Positions 8,862 through 54,638 of a DNA stretch of 64,000 nucleotides are shown here, in pieces. Location of the stretch: positions 62,001-126,000 of the forward strand of contig NZ_JAUSZL010000004.1 of the NCBI RefSeq assembly GCF_030817535.1. The letters are read 5' to 3'. A model generated the notes under the pieces. That model was not told the origin of the DNA. It ran no database searches and was given only the letters and a program-made list of their open reading frames with translations. The DNA comes from Streptomyces sp. V3I8. GTDB lineage: Bacteria > Actinomycetota > Actinomycetes > Streptomycetales > Streptomycetaceae. The position numbers were made by a program, and so were the translations under genes. Position 1 is the first letter of the stretch; every line of letters starts with the position of its first letter.

Positions 8862-8930
8862 TCGAGTCCCGCTGAGCGCGGCCGCGGTACAGCTTGTTTC
8901 GAGGGGGGATCGAGCCTGCTGCCCAACCCT
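8862..8930 (+). promoter_or_regulatory. SARP operator repeats before the PKS core operon
   Basis: Two pairs of direct heptamers are present. TCGAGTC (8862-8868) and TGAGCGC (8873-8879) are 11 bp apart, and TCGAGGG (8899-8905) and TCGAGCC (8910-8916) are 11 bp apart. Eight bases after the last heptamer is AACCCT (8925-8930) in the -10 position. The same 11-bp/8-bp geometry ending in NACCCT recurs before the amidotransferase gene at 21353. The operon starting at 8993 is the likely target. Confidence 0.65.
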
Positions 8931-8992
8931 GCTGTCCTGCACCGCCGGTGACGCCGGCCGTGCTCCCACCCGTGCAGTCAAGGAGGTAGCCG

Positions 8993-9328
8993 GTGCATCG
9001 GACGCTCATCGTGGCTCGGATGGACCCGAAGGACTCCGAGTCCGTCGCCACGGTCTTCGAGGAGTCGGATTCCACCGATCTGCCGCACGTGATCGGTGTG
9101 GCGCGGCGGACCCTGTTCTCCTTCCACGATCTCTACTTCCACCTCGTCGAGGCGGACCAGGACATCTCACCCAATCTCTACCGGGCCCGCAGCCATCCCC
9201 TCTACCGGCGCATCAACACCGGCCTGGGGGAATGGATCTCGCCCTACGACCCGAACTGGCAGGAGCCCAAGGACGCCATGGCCTCGCCGTTCTACGTGTG
9301 GACCCCGGAGGGGGGACGGATCCGATGA
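8993..9328 (+). CDS. TcmI-like polyketide cyclase
   Basis: This 111-residue protein starts at GTG 8993 behind a perfect AAGGAGG. RTLFSFHDLYFHLVE and DISPNLYRARSHPLYRRIN mark it as a member of the TcmI/WhiE-type cyclase family (PF04673), ferredoxin-fold enzymes that close a later ring of tetracenomycin and pentangular polyphenols. It is the first gene of a long plus-strand operon. Its stop overlaps the cupin start as ATGA. Confidence 0.9.
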   Translation: MHRTLIVARMDPKDSESVATVFEESDSTDLPHVIGVARRTLFSFHDLYFHLVEADQDISPNLYRARSHPLYRRINTGLGEWISPYDPNWQEPKDAMASPFYVWTPEGGRIR

Positions 9329-9762
9329 CGGCGCCCACCGACGCCCGGCGGCTGCGCGTCAACGAGGCCGACGCCAGGCCCAACCGCCGGCGCGGCGGGG
9401 ACATCCGGGTCACCCTCTCCCCGGTGACGGTCGGTTCGACCTCCGGGTTCGGCGGCATCCTCAGCCTGGAGCCGGGCGAGTTCGTGACCGAGCACTACCA
9501 CCCCTACTCCGAGGAGTTCCTGCACGTCGTCACCGGGGCCCTGGAGATCGCGGTGGACGGCACGAAGGTGTCCCTGGGGCCCGGTGACTCGCTGCTGGTC
9601 CCGATCGGCGCGCGGCACCGGCTGGTCAACACCGGTGCCGGCCGGGCGCGCTGTGTCTTCCATCTGTCCCCGCTGGCGCCACGGCCCGAGCTGGGCCATG
9701 TGGACACCGAGGACCCCGTGGACCGGACGGCGCCGCAGCCGCAGGTCGGGGGGACACCGTGA
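9325..9762 (+). CDS. TcmJ-like cupin protein
   Basis: This 145-residue single-domain cupin has the metal-site motif [16 protein letters not shown] (near 55-70) and a second half [21 protein letters not shown]. Small cupins of this kind (TcmJ, WhiE ORF II) accompany TcmI and TcmN type cyclases and help them give the correct ring pattern. Overlaps at both ends (ATGA with the cyclase, GTGA with KS-alpha) show tight translational coupling. Confidence 0.87.
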
Positions 9763-11042
9763 CCGCTCAGGGCGCCGGCGGCGGGCGGGCGGTGATCACC
9801 GGGATCGGGATGGTCGCCCCCGGCGGCATCGGCCGCAAGGCCGCCTGGGAGTTGCTGGCGGCGGGCCGCACCGCCACCCGCCGGATCACCCTCTTCGACC
9901 CTGCCCCCTTCCGCTCCCAGGTCGCCGCCGAGGTCGACTTCGACCCGGTGGCGAACGGCCTGACGGTCCGCGAAGCGCGCCGCATGGACCGGGCCGCGCA
10001 GTTCGCCGTGGTCTGCGCCCGTGAGGCGCTGTCCGACAGCGGCGTCGACCTGCCCGGCACGGAGCCGGACCGCGTCGCCGTGTCCCTGGGCAGCGCGGTG
10101 GGCTGCACCATGGGCCTGGAGGAGGAGTACGCCGTGCTCAGCGACGGCGGCCGGCAGTGGCTGGTGGACCACCGCTACGGCGTCCCCCAGTTGTACGGCT
10201 ACATGGCGCCCAGCACGCTGGCCGTCGAGGTGGCCCGCGAGGTCGGCGCCGAGGGTCCCGTCGCCCTGATCTCCACCGGCTGCACGTCCGGCCTGGACGC
10301 CATCGGCCACGGCGCGCGGCTCATCGAGGAGGGCGGCGCGGATGTCGTCGTCGCGGGCGCCACCGAGGCTCCGCTCTCCCCCATCACCTCCGCCTGTTTC
10401 GACGCCATCCGTGCCACGACCTCCAACAACGCCGACCCCGAGCACGCCTCCCGCCCTTTCGACCGGGAGCGGGACGGCTTCGTGCTCGGTGAGGGCGCCG
10501 CCGTGCTGGTGCTGGAGGACAAGAGGGCCGCCGAACGGCGCGGCGCCCATGTCTACGCCGAGATCGTCGGCTTCGCGGCCCGCAGCAACGCCTTCCACAT
10601 GACCGGGCTGCGCCCGGACGGCCGCGAGATGGCCGAGGCCATCACCCGCGCACTGGAGCGTGCCCGGCTGGACGCGACCGCCGTGGACTACATCAACGCC
10701 CACGGCTCGGGGACCAAGCAGAACGACCGGCACGAGACCGCCGCCTTCAAACGGAGCCTCGGCGAGCACGCCCGGGCCGTCCCGGTCAGCTCCATCAAGT
10801 CGATGATCGGGCACTCGCTGGGCGCCATCGGCTCGCTGGAGGTCGCGGCGTGCGCCCTGGCCCTGGAACACCAGGTCGTGCCGCCGACCGCGAACCTGCT
10901 CACCCCCGACCCGCAGTGCGACCTGGACTACGTGCCCCGGGTCGCCCGGGAGCACCGGATGGACGTGGTGCTCAGCGTCGGCAGCGGCTTCGGCGGCTTC
11001 CAGAGCGCGATGGTGCTGGCCGGTCCCGGCGCCGTGCGGTGA
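9759..11042 (+). CDS. Type II PKS ketosynthase alpha subunit
   Basis: This 427-residue beta-ketoacyl synthase condenses malonyl units on the acyl carrier protein. The active-site cysteine is in [14 protein letters not shown] (Cys175). The two histidines are in [10 protein letters not shown] and [12 protein letters not shown], so the catalytic triad is complete. GTG 9759 overlaps the cupin stop. It works as a heterodimer with the next gene. The cyclase set around it suggests a long pentangular-type chain, but chain length cannot be read from the sequence by eye. Confidence 0.96.
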
Positions 11043-11185
11043 AAGACGTCCCCCCTGTCCTGGGAGGCCGAGCCCGCGGGGATGCGTCCGGCGCCCGCGC
11101 GGCCACGGCCGGCCCCGCCGCACCCGTCCGGGAACCCCCGGCGTGGTTGTCCTGAAACCGCCTACCCACTTGTTAGGAGCGCGCG

Positions 11186-12415
11186 TTGAGCAGCGCCGCC
11201 ACCGCACCGTTGATCACGGGGATCGGGATCACCGCGCCGACCGGCCTGGGGGCCGGCCGGCACTGGGAGTCGGTGCTCGCCGGTAAGTCCGGCATCGCCC
11301 GGATCAGCCACTTCGATCCGTCCGGCTACCCGGTTCGCTTCGCCGGGGAGGTGGACGCCTTCGAGACCGCCGGGAAGGTGCCCGGCCGGGTCGCGAAGGA
11401 GACCGACCGGTGGACCCACCTCGCCCTGGTCGCCGCCGACGAAGCCCTGGCCGACGCCGGCGCCGACCCGGCGGCGTTTCCCGAGTACGGCATGGCGGTG
11501 GTGACCTCGTCCTCCTCCGGCGGTACCGCGTTCGGCCAGCACGAGATGGAGAACCTCTACCTGCACGACTCCGGCTGGGTGAGCGCCTACCAGTCGATCG
11601 CCTGGTTCTACGCCGCCACCAGCGGGCAGATCTCCATCCGGCACGGTATGCGCGGCTCCTCCGGGGTGCTCTGCTGCGAGCAGGCCGGCGGGCTGGACGC
11701 CCTCGCCCAGGCGCGGCGCCTGCTGCGGGACGGCGCGGCCCTGGTGGTCAGCGGCGGCACCGACGCGTCGCTGTGCCCGTACGGCCTGACCGCGCAGCTG
11801 AGCACCGGCCTGCTGTCCACAGTGGCCGATCCCTACCGCGCCTACCTGCCCTTCGACGCGGCCGCCTGTGGCTTCCTGCCCGGCGAGGGCGGGGCGATCC
11901 TGACCCTGGAGGATCCGCGGGACGCCGCGGCCCGCGGGCACCGCGGTGGCTACGCCCAGGTGCTCGGTCACGCCGCGGGGTTCGATCCCGTGCCGGGGAC
12001 CGGCCGTCCGCCCGCGCTGCGCCGCACCATCGAACGTGCCCTGACGGACGCCGGTCTGGCACCGCGGGACATCGACGCCGTGTTCGCCGACGCCGCCGGT
12101 GTACCCGAGCTGGACGCGATCGAGGCCCGGGCGCTGGGCGAGGTCTTCCGTCCGTACGGTGTGCCCGTGACCGCGCCCAAGGTCCTGACCGGGCGGCTGT
12201 ACGGCGGTGGCGCGCCGTTGGACGTGGCCACCGCCGCGATCTCGCTGCGCGAACAGGTCCTGCCGCACACCCCGGCCCCGATCACCCCCGACCCCGCCCA
12301 CCGCCTCGACCTGGTGCGGGACGAGCCGCGCCGGATCGCGCTGGGTGCCGTGCTCGTGCTCGCCCGTGGGCACGGCGGCTTCAACTCCGCGCTGGTGCTG
12401 GGCCGCTGGACGTGA
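11186..12415 (+). CDS. Type II PKS chain length factor (KS-beta)
   Basis: The 409-residue protein is homologous to KS-alpha but has glutamine in place of the active-site cysteine (CCEQAGGLDAL, Gln166), the hallmark of chain length factors. It starts with the rare codon TTG at 11186, 7 bases after TAGGAG, leaving 143 bp after KS-alpha. Most type II PKS pairs overlap or nearly touch at this junction, so the gap and weak start are unusual and could alter the balance of the two subunits. No better in-frame start is visible upstream. Confidence 0.93.
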   Translation: MSSAATAPLITGIGITAPTGLGAGRHWESVLAGKSGIARISHFDPSGYPVRFAGEVDAFETAGKVPGRVAKETDRWTHLALVAADEALADAGADPAAFPEYGMAVVTSSSSGGTAFGQHEMENLYLHDSGWVSAYQSIAWFYAATSGQISIRHGMRGSSGVLCCEQAGGLDALAQARRLLRDGAALVVSGGTDASLCPYGLTAQLSTGLLSTVADPYRAYLPFDAAACGFLPGEGGAILTLEDPRDAAARGHRGGYAQVLGHAAGFDPVPGTGRPPALRRTIERALTDAGLAPRDIDAVFADAAGVPELDAIEARALGEVFRPYGVPVTAPKVLTGRLYGGGAPLDVATAAISLREQVLPHTPAPITPDPAHRLDLVRDEPRRIALGAVLVLARGHGGFNSALVLGRWT

Positions 12416-12952
<537 letters not shown>

Positions 12953-12955
12953 GTC

Positions 12956-13417
12956 GTGGTCAGCTGGCTGCTGCCGCTGGTCCTGCTGCTCAACGGGCTG
13001 TCGGCCGGCGTGCTGCTCGGCACGCTGCTCGGCGGGTTCCCGCTGCTGGCATCGCTGCCGGAGGACCAGTACGTGCAGGCCCATGCCTTCTTCGCCGGGC
13101 GCTACGACCCCTGGATGCCGGCCTGTCTGATGGGTGCGCTGGCCGGCGACGTCCTGCTGGCCACCGATGTGCGCCGCGGCGTCGCCGCCGGGCTGCTGGC
13201 ACTGGCCGCGCTGCTCTGCACCGCCACCCTGGTGATCTCGCTCACCCAGAACGTGCCCACCAACAGGTGGGTGCGCAGCGTCGACCCCGCCGACCTGCCG
13301 CACGACGTGGACATCCCCGCCCTGCGGGAGCGCTGGGGGCGATGGAACCGGCTGCGCGGAACCCTGACCATCCTCGCGCTGGCCGCCAACTGTACGGCCC
13401 TGGCCACCTTGCTGTGA
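12956..13417 (+). CDS. DUF1772 anthrone-oxygenase-like protein, second copy
   Basis: This 153-residue integral membrane protein starts at GTG 12956. It has hydrophobic segments at about 3-30, 55-70, 73-93 and 135-153, and the family signatures [18 protein letters not shown] and [11 protein letters not shown]. It resembles the protein at 5957. By family analogy it may oxidise an anthrone-like ring without a cofactor. Confidence 0.8.
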
Positions 13418-42479: not shown

Positions 42480-42888
42480 CACTCCCGGGTTTCGGCACTT
42501 CCCGCGTCCGCGGAGCCCGGCTCGGGCGGTTCATGGCTCAGCGCTCGGAGCAGGACGAGTCCACCGGACACAGCGGTGGCTCCCTGCGCTCCCCGAACAC
42601 CCAGGACGGCACCTGCCCGGTGGGCCCGCCCGATCCACGCTGTGCGCGCGGTGGCCACGTCCTGGGCCGATGTGCCGCCTGGCGCGCTTTCCGGCACCGA
42701 GCGGTAGTGGACCTGGCGTCGAGCGTTCTCGCGGACGCTCGGTCTCCTCAGCTTGATCGGCGCCGTCGACCTCTACGGTGCCGGCCGCAACGAGGAGCCG
42801 GTGGCGGGTCCTCGGGTTGCGGTGTGCCGCTGAGCCCCGCGGTGTGGTGCGCAAGTCCGTCGGCCGAGGCGAGAAGGAGCTCTGGACC
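42480..42888. other. Intergenic region, no gene seen
   Basis: This 409-bp stretch follows the NRPS and precedes the carboxylase. Frames crossing it lack motifs. A short inverted repeat GAGCGT...ACGCTC lies near 42720-42740 and might be an operator. Confidence 0.5.
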
Positions 42889-44445
42889 ATGGCGAACGAT
42901 GTCGTCGGCCGGGTGGTCGAACTGCGGGCGATCCGTGCGCAGGCCCTTCGCGGCCCCGGTGACAAGGCGACCGCGGCGCAGCACGCCAAGGGGAAGCTCT
43001 CGGTACGGGAGCGGATCGGGCTGCTGCTGGACGAGGGCTCGTTCAACGAGGTCGAGCAGTTGCGCCGGCACCGGGCGAGCGGCTTCGGTCTGGAGGCCAA
43101 GCGGCCGTACACCGACGGTGTCGTGACCGGCTGGGGCACGGTCGAGGGCCGCACGGTCTTCGTGTACGCGCACGACTTCCGGATCTTCGGCGGCGCGCTG
43201 GGCGAGGCCCACGCCACGAAGATCCACAAGATCATGGACATGGCCATCGCGGCCGGGGCGCCGCTGGTCTCCCTCAACGACGGCGCGGGCGCCCGCATCC
43301 AGGAGGGCGTCTGCGCGCTCGCCGGCTACGGCGGCATCTTCCGGCGCAACACCCGCGCCTCCGGCGTCATCCCGCAGATCAGCGTCATGCTCGGCCCGTG
43401 TGCGGGCGGCGCGGCCTACAGCCCCGCGCTGACCGACTTCGTCTTCATGGTCCGCGAGACCTCGCAGATGTTCATCACCGGCCCCGACGTCGTCAAGGCG
43501 GTCACCGGCGAGGAGATCACCCAGAACGGCCTCGGCGGCGCCGACGTCCACGCCGAGACGAGCGGCGTGGCGCACTTCGCGTACGACGACGAGGAGACCT
43601 GCATCGCGGAGGTCCGCTACCTGCTGTCGATGCTGCCGCAGAACAACCGCGAGAACCCGCCGCAGATACCGTGCACCGATCCGGCCGCACGCCGCGGCGA
43701 AGCCCTGCTGGACCTGGTCCCCGCGGACGGCAGCCGCCCCTACGACATGACCGAGGTCATCGAGGAGCTCGTCGACGACGGCGACCACCTGGAGATCCAC
43801 GAACGCTGGGCCCGCAACATCATCTGCGCCCTGGCACGGCTCGACGGCCAGGTCGTCGGCATCGTCGCCAACCAACCACAGGTGCTGGCCGGGGTCCTGG
43901 ACATCGAGGCCTCGGAGAAGGCCGCACGCTTCGTCCAGCTGTGCGACGCGTACAGCATCCCCCTCGTCACGCTGCTGGACGTCCCGGGCTTCCTGCCCGG
44001 CGTCGACCAGGAGCACGGCGGAATCATCCGCCACGGCGCCAAACTCCTCTACGCCTACTGCAACGCCACCGTGCCGCGCATCAGCGTCGTCCTGCGCAAG
44101 GCCTACGGCGGCGCGTACATCGTCATGGACTCCCACTCCATCGGCGCCGACCTCACCTACGCCTGGCCCACCAACGAGATCGCCGTGATGGGCGCCGAGG
44201 GCGCCGCCAACGTCATCTTCCGCCGCCGGATCGCCGCGGCACAGGACCCCGAGGCAATACGGACCCGCATGGTCAAGGAGTACAAGGCCGAACTGATGCA
44301 CCCCTACTACGCGGCCGAACGCGGCCTGATCGACGACGTCATCGACCCCGCCGACACCCGCGAGGTCCTGATCCGCTCGCTGGCGATGCTGCGGGCCAAG
44401 CACGCGAGCCTGCCGTCGCGCAAGCACGGCAACCCCCCGCAGTGA
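42889..44445 (+). CDS. Acyl-CoA carboxylase carboxyltransferase (beta) subunit
   Basis: ATG 42889 follows GAAGGAG and gives 518 residues. The crotonase-like carboxyltransferase fold shows GGALGEAHATKIHKIMDMA, SLNDGAGARIQEG, GPCAGGAAYSPALTDF and, in the second half, DVPGFLPGVDQEHGGIIRHGAK and KAYGGAYIVM. These are PccB/AccB features. With a biotinylated alpha subunit from elsewhere it makes malonyl- or methylmalonyl-CoA. Dedicated copies occur in aromatic PKS clusters to raise malonyl-CoA supply. The alpha subunit is not in the window. Confidence 0.95.
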   Translation: MANDVVGRVVELRAIRAQALRGPGDKATAAQHAKGKLSVRERIGLLLDEGSFNEVEQLRRHRASGFGLEAKRPYTDGVVTGWGTVEGRTVFVYAHDFRIFGGALGEAHATKIHKIMDMAIAAGAPLVSLNDGAGARIQEGVCALAGYGGIFRRNTRASGVIPQISVMLGPCAGGAAYSPALTDFVFMVRETSQMFITGPDVVKAVTGEEITQNGLGGADVHAETSGVAHFAYDDEETCIAEVRYLLSMLPQNNRENPPQIPCTDPAARRGEALLDLVPADGSRPYDMTEVIEELVDDGDHLEIHERWARNIICALARLDGQVVGIVANQPQVLAGVLDIEASEKAARFVQLCDAYSIPLVTLLDVPGFLPGVDQEHGGIIRHGAKLLYAYCNATVPRISVVLRKAYGGAYIVMDSHSIGADLTYAWPTNEIAVMGAEGAANVIFRRRIAAAQDPEAIRTRMVKEYKAELMHPYYAAERGLIDDVIDPADTREVLIRSLAMLRAKHASLPSRKHGNPPQ

Positions 44446-46025: not shown

Positions 46026-47813
46026 TCAACGCTCGCCGTTCTCCGGGGCACGACTGAGCAGGACGTGTGTGGCGGCCAGTTCACGGTATGCCGGGCTGGT
46101 GGCGAGAAGTTGGTCGTGCCGTCCGGAGGCCACCGTGCGGCCGTCTTCGAGGACGACGATCCGGTCGGCGTGCTGAACGGTGGACAGGCGGTGTGCGATG
46201 ACGAGGACCGCGCAGTCGCGGGCGACGGCGCTGAGCGCCCGGGTCAGAGCCCTCTCGTTGACGGTGTCCAGATGCGAGGTGTGCTCGTCGAGCAGGAGCA
46301 GCCTCGGACGGGCGAGCAGGGCGCGGGCCAGGGCCACACGCTGGCGTTCTCCCGCGGAGAGAGTGCCGCCGCGATCGCCCAGCCTGCCGTCCAGACCCCC
46401 GGTCAATCGCTGCACCACGTGGTCGAGCCGGGTCAGTCGTACCACGCGGAGGATGTCGTCGTCCGTGGCGTCGGGGGCCGCGTAGGTGATGTTCTCCCGG
46501 AGCGTGCCCTCCAGTACGTGGGTGTTCTGATCCACGAGAGCGATACCCGCCCGGCACTGTTGGCGGCTCAGGCCCGTGGTCGGACGGCCGTCGAGCCGGA
46601 TGGTTCCGGTGTCGGGGTCGTAGAGGCGCGCGACCAGGGAGAAGAGTGTGCTTTTGCCGGCTCCTGAGCGGCCGACGAGAGCCACGAGTCCATGGCGCGG
46701 CACGGTGAAGGTCGCCCCGCGAAGGACTGGCCGGTCCGGGACGTAGGCGAAATGGATGTCGGTCAGTTCGAGCGCGGGGGTCGCGGAGAGCGGGGTGGTC
46801 GACGGTGCGCCGGGGCCCGCGTGGCCGGGCCGCTGCGCGGGTTCCTCGGGGAGGTCGAGGACCTCGTCGATCCTCAGGTACGCGCCCGCCCCACGCTGGA
46901 TCAGGCCGATGGCGCGGAACACCGACGACAGGGGCATGACCAGGTACGACGCGTACAGCAGGAAGGCGACCAGGTCTCCCAGCGAGTCCGCTCCACCACT
47001 CCCGACCCGCATGCCGCCGATGACCAGAACGAGCAGGAAGGAGCCCTGGACCGCGAGTTCGACGGCGCTGCTCATGACCGCGGCCAGTTTCGCCGTTTGT
47101 ACGCCGGACCGGTAGGCCGAGTCCACCCGCTCGCCGATGCGGTGCGCTTCGCGTTCCTCGGCCCGGTACACCCGGACCACCGGCAGGGCGCCGAGGGCGC
47201 GTTCCAGTTCCGCGGCGACGGCGCCCAGGGAAGTCTGCACGTGCTCCGAGGCCACTCGCATGCCTTTCAGGAGCGTGGTGACGACGGCTGCGGCCAGGGC
47301 CACCGTCGCCACGACGAGGAGCAGCAGCAGCGGGTCCAGCCACAGCATCAGCAGCAGTGCCCCGGCCGAGACGAGGCAGCCGGTGAGGAGATCGACCAGG
47401 GCCTGGGAGACGACGTCCCGCAGCAGAGTGGTGTCGGCGGTGACGCGGGAGACGAGGTCGCCGCGGCGGTGCCGGTCCACTTCCCGCATCTCCAACCGCA
47501 GCAGCCGCGAGACGAGTCCGTGGCGCACCGTGCGGATCACGCCCTCGCCCATGCGGTCCAGCAGGAACCGGCCGGTCGCTCCGGCGGCGGCCTCCGCGGC
47601 GAAGAGCACGGACAGGAGCAGCAGGAAGGGCCACAGCGCCTCGCCGCGGGCGCTGGAATTCACGACGTGCTTGGCGACGAGCGGCTGGGCGAGTCCGAGG
47701 GCCGACGCGGCCAGGGTCAGCCCGGTCGCTGTGGCGATACTGGAGCGGTGCCCGGACGTCAGACGGAACAGGGCGGCGACGGAACCTCCCGTCGTCTGCG
47801 ACGGCCGTGTCAT
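46026..47813 (-). CDS. Lasso peptide ABC exporter (fused membrane and ATPase)
   Basis: The 595-residue protein has an ABC transporter membrane domain (about 20-310, six predicted helices) and an ATPase domain (about 345-590) with Walker A GRSGAGKST, signature [16 protein letters not shown] and Walker B LLLDEHTSHLD. The usual LSGGQ is LSAGE and the Walker B glutamate is conserved. It begins immediately after the B2 stop (TGAATG). LarD/McjD-like exporters secrete the mature lasso peptide and give immunity. Confidence 0.93.
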   Translation of the reverse strand: MTRPSQTTGGSVAALFRLTSGHRSSIATATGLTLAASALGLAQPLVAKHVVNSSARGEALWPFLLLLSVLFAAEAAAGATGRFLLDRMGEGVIRTVRHGLVSRLLRLEMREVDRHRRGDLVSRVTADTTLLRDVVSQALVDLLTGCLVSAGALLLMLWLDPLLLLLVVATVALAAAVVTTLLKGMRVASEHVQTSLGAVAAELERALGALPVVRVYRAEEREAHRIGERVDSAYRSGVQTAKLAAVMSSAVELAVQGSFLLVLVIGGMRVGSGGADSLGDLVAFLLYASYLVMPLSSVFRAIGLIQRGAGAYLRIDEVLDLPEEPAQRPGHAGPGAPSTTPLSATPALELTDIHFAYVPDRPVLRGATFTVPRHGLVALVGRSGAGKSTLFSLVARLYDPDTGTIRLDGRPTTGLSRQQCRAGIALVDQNTHVLEGTLRENITYAAPDATDDDILRVVRLTRLDHVVQRLTGGLDGRLGDRGGTLSAGERQRVALARALLARPRLLLLDEHTSHLDTVNERALTRALSAVARDCAVLVIAHRLSTVQHADRIVVLEDGRTVASGRHDQLLATSPAYRELAATHVLLSRAPENGER

Positions 47814-48248
47814 TCACGTCCCCGCACGCCGCACCGGAGCCACGGTCACCAGTCGTGCGAAGTAGTCGTCCGGGACCCCCTCGCCGATGGGGCGGCCGTC
47901 GGCCTCGATCCAGGCGTGGGCGCTGAACGGCGGCACCTTGCGCACTCCGGTGCACCAGGTGGGCCAGGCGCCGTGGATCCGGCACAGCAGGGCCGCCCCG
48001 AGCGACCGGGGGAGGCAGCCGCGTGGCCCCGCGCAGCGCAGGCTCACCGCGCACAGCGCCTCACGGGCCGCCGCGGCCTGCGCGAGGGTGGCGGGCCGCG
48101 CGCCACGACGGACCCGCTCCAGTACGGCGCGGATATGACGCGGCGGCAGGAAGGACAGCATCAACGCGGGGACCAGGACGAGGCGAGCGGCCAGTCGCCG
48201 GGCGAGGGGGACTCCGGTGGGCCGGTCCAGGGCGCTGGGAGTGGTCAT
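47814..48248 (-). CDS. Lasso peptide leader peptidase (B2)
   Basis: The 144-residue transglutaminase-like cysteine protease has the catalytic cysteine in RGCLPRSLGAALL (about Cys78), the histidine in FSAHAWIEADG (about His111) and an aspartate six residues later. This is the B2 half of split B proteins. It cuts the precursor after the leader, two residues past the conserved threonine. It overlaps the B1 gene as ATGA and directly precedes the exporter. Confidence 0.93.
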   Translation of the reverse strand: MTTPSALDRPTGVPLARRLAARLVLVPALMLSFLPPRHIRAVLERVRRGARPATLAQAAAAREALCAVSLRCAGPRGCLPRSLGAALLCRIHGAWPTWCTGVRKVPPFSAHAWIEADGRPIGEGVPDDYFARLVTVAPVRRAGT

Positions 48249-48499
48249 GAGACCAGCCCCGCGGACCGGAGGTCGCGTACCAGTGCCGACACGTCCTGCT
48301 CCGCGTGATCGCGGTCGATGTCGAACCGGGCGACGAGCGCCGTGACGGCGGCCGCCTCGTCGCCCTCGGTCATGAGCATCCTCACCACCAGTGCGCCCGT
48401 GGGGTTGAGTTCCCAGTACTCACCGGTGCGCTGGTCGAGGAGCACCGTTCCGTACTCGGTCTCCGCGGTGGAGACGTCGGTGCCGAATCGGAGCGTCAC
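48245..48499 (-). CDS. Lasso peptide RRE/PqqD-like protein (B1)
   Basis: The 84-residue protein FGTDVSTAETEYGTVLLDQ, then TGEYWELNPTGALVVRMLM, is a stand-alone RiPP recognition element. It binds the leader through its winged-helix beta strand and delivers the precursor to the peptidase and cyclase. Such split B1/B2 proteins are the rule in actinobacteria. It sits between the cyclase and B2 genes. Confidence 0.93.
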   Translation of the reverse strand: MTLRFGTDVSTAETEYGTVLLDQRTGEYWELNPTGALVVRMLMTEGDEAAAVTALVARFDIDRDHAEQDVSALVRDLRSAGLVS

Positions 48500-48527
48500 G
48501 GGATCGGTCCCTTTCTGCTGTCTTCCG

Positions 48528-50384
48528 TCATCCGACGGCGGATCCGGGACGCGGGGCGCGGTCCCGGGAGCGCAGCCACACCTCGCACGCGACGGTCGAG
48601 TAGAGGATCGCGTCGCGCAGACCAGGCGCGGAGGGCCGCTGCGCGAGCCGGCGCAGTTCCCCGCCGTCCACCAGGCCGAGGCTTTCCAGCCTGGAGTCGG
48701 TCCACAGAGTCATCAGGTCGCCCCGGTGGCGGCGCAGTCCGTCCGACGCGTCCATCGAGGCCTCCGCCTTGTTGGCACGCCGCAGGCACTCCTCCGGAAC
48801 GACACCGCGCATCGCCTCGCTGAGCAGCGGTTTGTACCGCCATGGCGTGACGCGTTCGTCCGGCCGTACCGCCAGGCACGCCTCGATCACGCGGTCGTCC
48901 AGGTACGGCGACGCCATCGGAAGTCCCGCTCGGGTCGCCATCCGCTCCCACTGGCGGAGGATGCGCGTGCAGGTGCGGATCAGCTCCAGGTCAGTGTGCA
49001 TGCCGCGGTCCGCGTGCAGCGGCTCGGCCTGTGCGGCCGAGTCCAGCAGGGCTCGGCGGGCGAGCCGTTCCGTCTCGGAGGTCATCCAGGGAAACAAGCG
49101 GGGTGACATCCCCCAACCGAGGCTTGCGGTCACCGAGGACTGCGGCATCGGAGCGCGTAGCCGACGGACGGAGTCGGCCAGCCAGCCGGAGTACGTGCGG
49201 GAGTCGGCGAGGGCACGCGCCGTCCCACCGAGCGGCCAGTTCCACAGGGCGCGAAAGCCGCGCAACTGGCGCAGCGCGAACAGCGGGCGGGTGCGCAGCA
49301 GTCCGTGGTAGTACGCCTCCGAGCACCAGGCGACGTGGTCGCCGCCGATGCCGGTGAGGTGCACCCGGCTGCGGCGTGCGGCCAGCCACGGCAGGTGCTG
49401 CAGGACGCGCGAGCGGTCCATCACGCCGATGGTCGGCTCGTCGAGCAGGTCGTCGATGCCCAGCAGGTCCGAGTAGACCAGGGCCGAGGCGTCCGGGTCC
49501 CAGACGGCGTGGTCCACCTTCGGCAGGTGCTGTGCCGCCTGCCGGGCCCACGCCAGGTCGGTGTCCGCGGGATCCCGGCCGGGCCAGGTCGCCGCCACCA
49601 CGGAGGCGGTGGAGCGGGCGGCCAGGAAGCAGACGGAGGTGGAGTCCAGTCCGCCGGACAGGTCGCAGCTGACCACACCGCCCGGCCGGGTCCGGACGTC
49701 CACGGCCTCGGCCAGCGCCGTGCGGACGGCCGGCGCGCCCTGTGCGAGGGTGCGGGTCGGCTCCGGTGGCCGCCACCAGCGTGAACTGCGGACCCGGTGT
49801 CCGTCCGCGGAGATGAACAGGGCCTCCTCCGGGGAGACCGCGTCGACCCCCTGCCAGACCGAGGTCTCGTACAGCGGATGCGGCACGGGCCACAGGAGCC
49901 GGGCGGCCAGTCGGCCGGTGTCCGGCCTGCTCCCCAAGGCCTCGGCGAGCAGGTCCGCGCTCGTCGCCGCCACGCGGACGCCACCGATCCGGGCGTGGAA
50001 GACCAGCCGCAGCCCGGAGGCCGTGCCCTGCATCCTGAGCTGCCCGTCGTGGGTGGCCACCAGATGGAAACTGCCCGGCACGGACCGGGCCAGGGCGTCG
50101 AGTTCAGTGAGGTCGCGCATGCGTGCGGCCTGGCGTTCGAGCTGTTGCCGGTCGGCTGCACACCAGCCGACGGCGGCCAGGGCCGTTGTGCCGGCCCGGG
50201 CCGAGATGATCTCCGTGCCGGACCAGCGGCCGATCAGCCAGGGCCGGCCCGAGGCATGGGTGAGGACACACGTACCGGGGTGGCGGAAGAACCGGACCGC
50301 GGCGGCCGCCTCCTCGCAGTCGGGAAAGACAGCGAAGTGGGCGTCGCCGCGCTCCGGTTCCGCACTCTCATGCATGGGGGACAT
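48528..50384 (-). CDS. Lasso peptide macrolactam synthetase (C)
   Basis: This 618-residue asparagine-synthetase homologue activates the side-chain carboxyl of the ring acid as an AMP ester and closes the ring onto the core N-terminus. The ATP-binding motif SCDLSGGLDSTSV is near residue 240, followed by LTGIGGDHVAW. The N-terminal glutaminase-like part lacks the catalytic Cys2 (it begins MSPMHES), as normal for lasso cyclases. It starts at 50384 or at the second ATG 50375, with little ribosome site, 26 bp after the precursor stop. Confidence 0.94.
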   Translation of the reverse strand: MSPMHESAEPERGDAHFAVFPDCEEAAAAVRFFRHPGTCVLTHASGRPWLIGRWSGTEIISARAGTTALAAVGWCAADRQQLERQAARMRDLTELDALARSVPGSFHLVATHDGQLRMQGTASGLRLVFHARIGGVRVAATSADLLAEALGSRPDTGRLAARLLWPVPHPLYETSVWQGVDAVSPEEALFISADGHRVRSSRWWRPPEPTRTLAQGAPAVRTALAEAVDVRTRPGGVVSCDLSGGLDSTSVCFLAARSTASVVAATWPGRDPADTDLAWARQAAQHLPKVDHAVWDPDASALVYSDLLGIDDLLDEPTIGVMDRSRVLQHLPWLAARRSRVHLTGIGGDHVAWCSEAYYHGLLRTRPLFALRQLRGFRALWNWPLGGTARALADSRTYSGWLADSVRRLRAPMPQSSVTASLGWGMSPRLFPWMTSETERLARRALLDSAAQAEPLHADRGMHTDLELIRTCTRILRQWERMATRAGLPMASPYLDDRVIEACLAVRPDERVTPWRYKPLLSEAMRGVVPEECLRRANKAEASMDASDGLRRHRGDLMTLWTDSRLESLGLVDGGELRRLAQRPSAPGLRDAILYSTVACEVWLRSRDRAPRPGSAVG

Positions 50385-50410
50385 GGAGTTGCTTTACGTA
50401 CCGGCCGCCG

Positions 50411-50521
50411 TCAGTTCTTGCTGAGGATCAGGCGGTCGTTGCCGCTGCGCTGCAGCAGCCCGGTCTTGCGGCGGAACGACCCCAGCCGGACGAGCGTGGG
50501 GGCCTCGTAGGCCTTCTTCAT
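50411..50521 (-). CDS. Lasso peptide precursor, citrulassin type
   Basis: The 36-residue precursor starts at ATG 50521 behind GAGGTGA. Its leader holds the RRE-recognition pattern YEAPTLVRLGSF (Tyr5, Pro8, Leu10, Gly14, Phe16) and the conserved Thr20 at position -2. The predicted 15-residue core is LLQRSGNDRLILSKN, ring from Leu1 to Asp8. From memory, citrulassin A is LLGLAGNDRLVLSKN, so GNDRL and LSKN are conserved. Arg9 is the residue turned into citrulline in that family. The extra Arg4 inside the ring is unusual for it. Identity is by family knowledge, not by a search. Confidence 0.95.
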   Translation of the reverse strand: MKKAYEAPTLVRLGSFRRKTGLLQRSGNDRLILSKN

Positions 50522-52062: not shown

Positions 52063-52701
52063 TCAGCCGCCGCCCATGCCGCCCTGCGCGGCGATCATGG
52101 TCGTCGGCAGCGCGCGTACGGCTGTCTCCAGGCCGGGCGCGAGGGTGGCGAGGCATCCCGTGCAGGCGTCGATACGGGCCCGGAAGGTCCTGTGGTCCTG
52201 CCGTGACACGACCGAGCGGATGCCGCCCGCCGCGGCCAGCGCCAGCAGCGCGGCGTCGGCGGCGGGGATCTCCCGCACGGGACCGTCCGCGTGCAGCACC
52301 GCGGACACGCGGGCGCGGAGCGCGGCGGGCACCGCGCGGTCCCGCACGACCGGCCGCCGTGCGCCGAAACGGGTGCGGGGCGCCTTCACCGTGAGGACCC
52401 CCGCCGCGGCGAGCCGGTCCTCCACCTGTGTCAGGGTCCGCTTCCGGTGGCGGCGCACGAGGTACTTCCAGCCGTGCCCGGCGGCGGCGTCGCGCAGAAC
52501 GCCGTCCAGCACGGGGTCGCCGACGGGTTGCGTGCCGGACACGGTGACCGTGCCGTCCACCTCCCCCAGCCGTCCGCGCAGGGCGAGGTCGACCAGGGCC
52601 GCGGCACGGACCAGCAACTGCGTGCGGGAACGGTCGTAAGGGCCTTCGGCCCTGTCGTCGTGGGCGAGCAGATACATGAGGCAGGCCAGGTCGTCGATCA
52701 C
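52063..52701 (-). CDS. GPP34 (GOLPH3-like) domain protein
   Basis: The 212-residue protein starts at GTG 52701. It reads DLACLMYLLAHDD, then LLVRAAALVDLALRGRLGEV and VEDRLAAAGVLT, the pattern of the GPP34 family (PF05719). Eukaryotic GOLPH3 binds phosphoinositides. Bacterial members are common in Streptomyces and of unknown function. It lies between the two-component system and the membrane protein, all on the minus strand. Confidence 0.8.
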   Translation of the reverse strand: MIDDLACLMYLLAHDDRAEGPYDRSRTQLLVRAAALVDLALRGRLGEVDGTVTVSGTQPVGDPVLDGVLRDAAAGHGWKYLVRRHRKRTLTQVEDRLAAAGVLTVKAPRTRFGARRPVVRDRAVPAALRARVSAVLHADGPVREIPAADAALLALAAAGGIRSVVSRQDHRTFRARIDACTGCLATLAPGLETAVRALPTTMIAAQGGMGGG

Positions 52702-52815: not shown

Positions 52816-53475
52816 TCAGGGCCGGCGCACCCGCACGAGGCCGTGGTCGTAGGCGGCGACGACGGCCTGCACGCGGTCGCGCAGGCCCAGTTTGCGCAGC
52901 ACCGCGGTGACATGGTTCTTGACGGTGGCCTCCGACAGGCGTAGCCGTCCGGCGATCTCCGCGTTCGACAGCGCCTGCCCGATCAGGGTGAGCACCTCCC
53001 GCTCGCGGCCGGACAGGTCCCGCAGGGAGGGCGGCGGCGCCGGGTCGGGCGTGGTGCGCAGGAACCGGTCCAGGACGCGGCTGAGCACGGTCGGCGCCAG
53101 CAGCGCGTCGCCGCGCGCGGTCAGGCGGATCGCGTCGACGAGTTCGCCCGGGCGGATGTCCTTGAGCAGGAAGCCGCTCGCCCCGGCCCGCAGGGCGGCG
53201 ACCACATGCGCGTCCACGTCCCAGGTGGTCAGCACGAGCACCCGGGCCCGGGCGCCCGACTCCGCGATCCGCCGGGTCGCCTCGATGCCGTCCAGGACGG
53301 GCATGCGTACGTCCATCAGCACCACGTCGGGCGCCAGTTCCCGCGTCAGCCGCACCGCCTCCTGCCCGTCGGACGCCTCGCCCACCACCTCGAGGTCGTC
53401 CCGGGCGTCGATGATCATGCGGAATCCGGTACGGACCAGGGCCTGGTCGTCGGCCACCACCACGCGCAGCGTCAT
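52816..53475 (-). CDS. NarL/LuxR-type response regulator
   Basis: The 219-residue protein has a receiver domain (about 1-125) with Asp55 in VVLMDVRMP as the phosphorylation site and an acidic pair DD at 9-10. A LuxR helix-turn-helix (about 150-215, LSGREREVLTLIGQALSNAEI then AGRLRLSEATVKNHVTAVLRK) follows. ATG 53475 overlaps the kinase stop as ATGA, so the two are made together. Confidence 0.94.
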   Translation of the reverse strand: MTLRVVVADDQALVRTGFRMIIDARDDLEVVGEASDGQEAVRLTRELAPDVVLMDVRMPVLDGIEATRRIAESGARARVLVLTTWDVDAHVVAALRAGASGFLLKDIRPGELVDAIRLTARGDALLAPTVLSRVLDRFLRTTPDPAPPPSLRDLSGREREVLTLIGQALSNAEIAGRLRLSEATVKNHVTAVLRKLGLRDRVQAVVAAYDHGLVRVRRP

Positions 53476-54638
53476 GACGCGCCCCGCGCCGGCAGGTGCG
53501 CCGCCACCTCGAACCCGCCTCCGGGCAGCGGACCGGCGCGCAGGCTGCCGCCCACCAGCCGTGCGCGTTCCTTCATCCCCACAAGGCCGCGTTCCGCTCC
53601 GGCCGCGGCCGGAGCGCCGTGCGGTGTACGGCCGTTGTCGGCCACCGTGATCTTCACGCACTCCCCGTGGGCCGTGACGCGCACGCTCACCTCGTCCGCG
53701 CCGGCCGCGTGGCGCAGCGTGTTGGTGAGGGCCTCCTGGACGATCCGGTACGCCGCCAGATCCACCGCGGCCGGCAGTCCGTCCGCGGCGCCCTCCCGGT
53801 GCACGTGCACCGTCATCCCGGTCGCGCGCACCGTGTCGGCCAGCTCGTCCAGACGCGTGAGCGAGGGCCCCGGCTCCCGCTGCTCCCCGGCTCCCTGCGT
53901 CCCCGCCTCGGGTGCGAACGCGCGCAGCAGCAGGCGTAGTTCACCGAGCGCCGAGCGGGCGCCCGTCTCGATGGCCCGCAGCGCCCGACGGGCCTGCTCG
54001 GGCCGTTCGGCGAACACGTCGTCGGCCGCGCCCGCCTGAACGACCATCACCGACAGGGTGTGCGCCACGACGTCGTGCACCTCACGCGCGATCCGCGCAC
54101 GCTCCTCCACCACGGCCCGGCGCATCTCCGCCCTGATCCGTTCCTGCTGCGCCCTGCGCCACTGTCCCGCGGTCCAGGCCAGGAGCACCGTCAGCAGGAG
54201 GACCGCCGCACCCGCAGGGCCGCCCGCCCCGAACGCCAGCGGCGCCGGCAGGCACATCGCGGCGAGCGCCCGCACCGAGACCCGCCGCGGCCTGGTGGCC
54301 GACAGCACGCACAACGCGACCTGCGCCGCCAGCAGTGCCCCCGTCAAGGTCACCGCGGGCAGCAGCGCCCACACCGCGAGCCCCGCCGCCGCGGTCACGG
54401 CCAGTACGACGGCCGGGGCGCGCGTCTGCCACCTCAGGGCCCAGGCCTGCGCGAGGACCAGGGCCAGGGCCACGGGCAGTCGCCGGCCGTGGTCCGTGCC
54501 GGCAACGAGCACCGAGGTGCCCAGGACGGTGAGCACCAGGCCGGCCGACCCCCACCACAGCGCCCGGGCCGTCCGGGGCGGCAGCGCGCCCTGCGCCTGC
54601 CCTGCGAACGCGTCGTGGGGCTGTCTGCTGCGGTCCAC
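53472..54638 (-). CDS. Sensor histidine kinase (HisKA_3 type)
   Basis: The 388-residue protein has four or five N-terminal membrane helices (about 25-165), then the DHp motif EERARIAREVHDVVAHTLSV with the phosphoacceptor His in EVHD. The ATPase domain follows with NTLRHAAGADEVSV and VADNGRTPHGAP. It lacks a large extracellular sensing domain, so it is likely an intramembrane sensor. The signal is unknown. Confidence 0.92.
   Translation of the reverse strand: MDRSRQPHDAFAGQAQGALPPRTARALWWGSAGLVLTVLGTSVLVAGTDHGRRLPVALALVLAQAWALRWQTRAPAVVLAVTAAAGLAVWALLPAVTLTGALLAAQVALCVLSATRPRRVSVRALAAMCLPAPLAFGAGGPAGAAVLLLTVLLAWTAGQWRRAQQERIRAEMRRAVVEERARIAREVHDVVAHTLSVMVVQAGAADDVFAERPEQARRALRAIETGARSALGELRLLLRAFAPEAGTQGAGEQREPGPSLTRLDELADTVRATGMTVHVHREGAADGLPAAVDLAAYRIVQEALTNTLRHAAGADEVSVRVTAHGECVKITVADNGRTPHGAPAAAGAERGLVGMKERARLVGGSLRAGPLPGGGFEVAAHLPARGAS

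Follow-up and report, generated by a model that had tools for sequence, protein, structure and literature searches.

Streptomyces sp. V3I8 carries a complete lasso peptide operon of the standard, already known citrulassin type, and its product is most likely a des-citrulassin with Arg4 and Arg9 unmodified, since searches of the genome gave no peptidylarginine deiminase (PAD); we assign this reading a probability of about 0.9. The operon runs on the minus strand from 50521 to 46026 of the 64,000-nucleotide stretch that was analysed (the window), and by itself it matters little. The missing deiminase holds at the genome level within the reach of our searches; it is the commoner state and has already been described in print. 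V3I8 is one more genome with no detectable PAD, as are over half of the carriers examined, and such strains offer natural backgrounds for studying the role of the unmodified peptide and the effect of the citrulline.

The operon and its predicted product

The genes were assigned to families with Pfam and NCBIfam profiles (Table 1). All five open reading frames are intact and, as in lasso peptide clusters generally, a precursor, a PqqD-like B1, a transglutaminase-like B2 and an asparagine-synthase-like cyclase C occur together. The spacing of the genes (26 bases between A and C, 28 between C and B1, a 4-base overlap of B1 and B2 and 0 between B2 and D) gives a pattern as in a single transcription unit. 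The precursor has Thr at leader position -2, and a ribosome-binding-like stretch, GAGGTGA, stands immediately 5' of its ATG. The cyclase has the SGGLDS motif at residue 243, while its match to NF033561, 254.5 bits, is under that model's cut-off of 300. In B2, Cys78 and His111 are invariant across the 77 relatives aligned at both positions, and the Walker A, signature and Walker B motifs were all found in D. The full A-C-B1-B2-D operon described in the first-pass annotation is thus borne out by the reading frames and family matches, and the 15-residue core, LLQRSGNDRLILSKN, is exactly as given there.

Table 1. Genes of the lasso peptide operon, the core region and the neighbouring genes (positions in the window).
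Feature	Position	Strand	Basis
A, lasso precursor, 36 aa	50411..50521	-	PF19397 (E 2.7e-17), NF033521; MKKAYEAPTLVRLGSFRRKTG / LLQRSGNDRLILSKN
Core region LLQRSGNDRLILSKN	50414..50458	-	homology to citrulassins A and N (predicted Leu1-Asp8 ring, Arg9)
C, lasso macrolactam cyclase, asparagine-synthase type, 618 aa	48528..50384	-	PF00733 (2.1e-46)
B1, PqqD-family leader-binding protein, 84 aa	48245..48499	-	NF033530 (1.9e-33)
B2, transglutaminase-like leader peptidase, 144 aa	47814..48248	-	NF033537 (3.7e-33)
D, ABC exporter, 595 aa	46026..47813	-	ABC_membrane, ABC_tran
Neighbour, acyl-CoA carboxylase carboxyltransferase	42778-44445	+	
Neighbour, GPP34-domain protein	52063-52701	-	
Neighbour, LuxR-type response regulator	52816-53661	-	

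We infer leader cleavage, ring closure, threading and export from homology to citrulassins A and N. B1 would bind the leader and, together with it, B2 would cleave after Gly(-1), removing the leader at the Gly/Leu1 junction; C would form the bond between the amine of Leu1 and the side chain of Asp8, enclosing the threaded tail, D would export the product, and both Arg4 and Arg9 would stay unmodified in a cell without PAD. The predicted mature product would therefore be a Leu1-Asp8 macrolactam with a threaded tail, with a calculated monoisotopic mass of 1707.974 Da ([M+2H]2+ 854.9945) when unmodified and of 1708.958 Da ([M+2H]2+ 855.4865) with one citrulline. The same arithmetic returns for citrulassin N the [M+2H]2+ of 820.9519 that is calculated in PMC12971885.

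The genome has 9.32 Mb in 4 contigs, and the window sits on a contig of 258,682 bases, separate from the contig of 8.85 Mb. The plasmid records searched held no relative of the cyclase C at 60% identity or more.

Relation to described citrulassins

The assignment of the operon to the citrulassin type in the first-pass annotation is upheld by a core that fits the pattern LLxxxGNDRLxLSKN, in which Arg9 immediately follows Asp8, and by a cyclase 71% identical to that of strain B-3066 (L067), against the cut-off of >45% used for citC in PMC12971885; homology likewise supports the Leu1-Asp8 ring proposed in that annotation. The precursor is not new. It is identical in 36 of 36 residues to that of Lp1 from Streptomyces leeuwenhoekii C34T, printed in 2019 (PMC6856326), whose authors state that the Lp1 core is identical to the core of a known citrulassin-family member. 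The table of a 2026 paper (PMC12971885) lists LLQRSGNDRLILSKN as the citrulassin type of 5 of 34 strains, 2 with and 3 without PAD.

The Lp1 (cit) cluster has, according to PMC6856326, a single ABC transporter, as here, and lies on the chromosome, whereas our operon is on the 258,682-base contig. C34T also has the precursor of Lp2 (leepeptin), to which the best match in V3I8 reaches only E 0.5, so V3I8 and C34T are distinct genomes. S. leeuwenhoekii DSM 42122 is scored N for PAD in PMC12971885, and V3I8 is likewise without a PAD match.

The 2019 study detected no Lp1 product in C34T by MALDI-ToF, nor after heterologous expression of the cluster in S. coelicolor (PMC6856326), so the operon of V3I8 may be silent or its product hard to detect. 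It is possible, if rather unlikely, that V3I8 makes no stable product or leaves the operon unexpressed. The genes are intact, and strains lacking pad were found to make des-citrulassins according to PMC9266682. Moreover, the search for Lp1 began from a mass one glycine heavier, 1764.9959 Da, a value that we reproduce here; its authors report that allowing one residue in either direction likewise yielded nothing (PMC6856326).

Of the named members, citrulassin N (core LLQSSGNDRLILSKN) has the ring size, tail and Arg9 position seen here and 14 of 15 core residues in common, but Ser4 in place of Arg4; it is citrullinated at residue 9, and the strain that makes it has PAD (PMC12971885). The operon of citrulassin A (core LLGLAGNDRLVLSKN, strain B-3066) encodes C, B1 and B2 proteins 71%, 67% and 79% identical to ours. 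The B-3066 genome has PAD, unlike V3I8, and D was not found at its locus, whereas the operon here has D. Des-citrulassin D of S. katrae NRRL B-16271 (L041) has a different core, LLGRSGNDRLVLSKN, with C 71% and D 67% identical to ours; as in V3I8, no PAD was found in its genome.

Search for a deiminase in the V3I8 genome

A profile search of the whole 9.32-Mb, 4-contig genome with PF03068 (peptidylarginine deiminase) gave no match. A 649-aa PAD encoded in the L010 genome, L010 being among the closest cyclase relatives, likewise found nothing in V3I8 at E up to 10, as a query without a control of its own. PF04371 had no match in V3I8 either, and the controls for that search worked. The first-pass annotation had seen no deiminase in the window and proposed to look for one of the citrulassin type across the genome; this search has now been run, and neither PF03068 nor the close PAD query found one anywhere in the genome.

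The PF03068 search was controlled with a sample of the genus and with named strains. Matches were obtained in 65 of 392 Streptomyces genomes (V3I8 being one of the 392). PAD was found in B-3066, a strain of the citrulassin A producer, at E 3e-113, and S. katrae B-16271, the native producer of des-citrulassin D according to the review PMC9266682, had no PF03068 match, which is the outcome predicted from that account. Our calls also agree with Table 1 of PMC12971885 for S. aureocirculatus (PAD present) and for S. calvus, S. cinerochromogenes and NRRL S-337 (PAD absent), although the deposits may differ. B-3066 is named S. noursei in its sequence record and S. albulus in PMC9266682.

The arginine-deiminase family (ADI) profile PF02274 matched one full-length protein of V3I8 (C2:2310986-2312101, 407.8 bits) and two further short, low-scoring stretches. 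The full-length protein is taken as a free-arginine deiminase, free arginine being the substrate of ADI-family enzymes. This protein is one reason to consider that Arg9 (or Arg4) might still be citrullinated by some enzyme encoded elsewhere in the genome, either unrelated or highly diverged, which we nevertheless regard as very unlikely given the substrate of its family and the negative searches described above. Another reason is the single exception to pad presence among citrulassin producers given in the review PMC9266682, which makes pad absence an imperfect predictor; in the same account, however, des-citrulassin accompanied the lack of pad, and the product was converted when pad was added, co-expression of a citrulassin PAD being reported there for S. 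katrae. That a strain without PAD deiminates Arg9 or Arg4 by a novel, unrelated enzyme we would call extremely unlikely. An unmodified des-citrulassin accordingly remains our preferred reading.

PAD among citrulassin carriers

Relatives were retrieved with the cyclase C, and the best 80 of 107 confirmed loci were compared. Each of these 80 has one citrulassin-type core, which places the operon far beyond chance. PAD, searched with PF03068, is present in 23 of 76 genomes (19/47 plus 4/29) and absent from 53, the 23 including two (G433, G463) that score lower over most of the model, at 222-227 bits, and one (G464) that matches only in pieces, at most 47.6 bits. The 76 genomes are those of the 80 loci less L009, L054, L058 and L039, the last being a second locus in the L014 assembly. 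Even the closest cyclase relatives are divided, with PAD in L010 and L012 and none in L011. In PMC12971885, too, 19 of 34 tabulated strains have no PAD, so that carriers without it outnumber those with it in both sets.

Across the genus, PF19397 matches occur in at least 78 of 392 genomes and a citrulassin core in at least 45 of them, V3I8 included; the PF19397 counts are lower bounds, with at most 20 candidates scored per genome. Inspection covered 90 of 96 PF19397 matches (30 loci and 60 stretches), the other 6 being in genomes already counted. PAD is found in 16 of 45 citrulassin genomes against 49 of 347 others (Fisher odds ratio 3.4, p 0.0009, kinship ignored and carrier counts being lower bounds); with matches of at least 290 bits only, the figures are 13/45 and 42/347 (p 0.005). 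PAD and citrulassin are thus associated in the genus, yet 29 of the 45 carriers are without a PAD match.

A PhoD-like phosphatase accompanies PAD in five of seven PAD stretches (L147, at 8892-13255, and L148-L150 and L152), with 92-96% identity to the L147 copy, and in four of the seven (L147, L149, L150, L152) the two are separated by a gene of 192-206 aa, 86-93% identical; the phosphatase was not seen near PAD in L151 and L153. The PhoD-like proteins of V3I8 reach at best 42% identity to the PAD-linked phosphatase, and the PAD neighbourhood was not found in this genome. A small deletion of PAD in V3I8 was therefore set aside, as there is no shared site to inspect for it.

Core residues among relatives

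Arg9 is present in all 80 cores of the best 80 of 107 loci, in keeping with the retention of this residue remarked on in the first-pass annotation. The same annotation had singled out Arg4 and Gln3 as additions within the ring, and neither is distinctive: among the same 80 cores Arg4 occurs in 48 and Gln3 in 37, and Table 1 of PMC12971885 has Arg4 in 20 of 34 cores. The exact core LLQRSGNDRLILSKN occurs at 10 of the 80 loci (L010, L012, L021, L028, L058, L062, L069, L071, L081, L082). Arg4 had also been proposed as a second site of deimination, for which we find no support given the missing PAD and an inconsistent relation between Arg4 and PAD. In our set (n=72, strong PAD matches only, four Phe1 loci omitted) PAD accompanies 9 of 42 Arg4 genomes and 10 of 30 others (Fisher p 0.29), while in Table 1 of PMC12971885 it accompanies 12 of 20 Arg4 strains and 3 of the 14 without Arg4 (p 0.04 by Fisher's test, kinship ignored). 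As the two trends run in opposite directions we draw nothing from them on a link between Arg4 and PAD, and the idea that Arg4 marks a second place of deimination was rejected.

The first core residue is Leu in 76 of the best 80 of 107 loci and Phe in 4, namely FLQKNGNDRLLLSKN, FLQRSGNDRLILSKN, FLMRAGNDRLILSKN and FLQRNGNDRLILSKN at L018, L023, L037 and L038. At 14 of these 80 loci, the citrulassin A locus L067 included, there is no clear D exporter directly 3' of B2; the exporter of L057 overlaps B2 and failed the test, and the sequences of L038, L055 and L058 stop too soon for a call. G006 and G251 each have a pair of citrulassin-type loci whose cores differ, as does the assembly of L014 and L039. 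Other PF19397 precursors (L095, L114, L162, L198, L207, L216, L217) start with MRxYxRPTL, and their cores, for example LAGRSAPDLLGGKNLA and LGTHRGPERVLPARFSL, do not resemble citrulassin.
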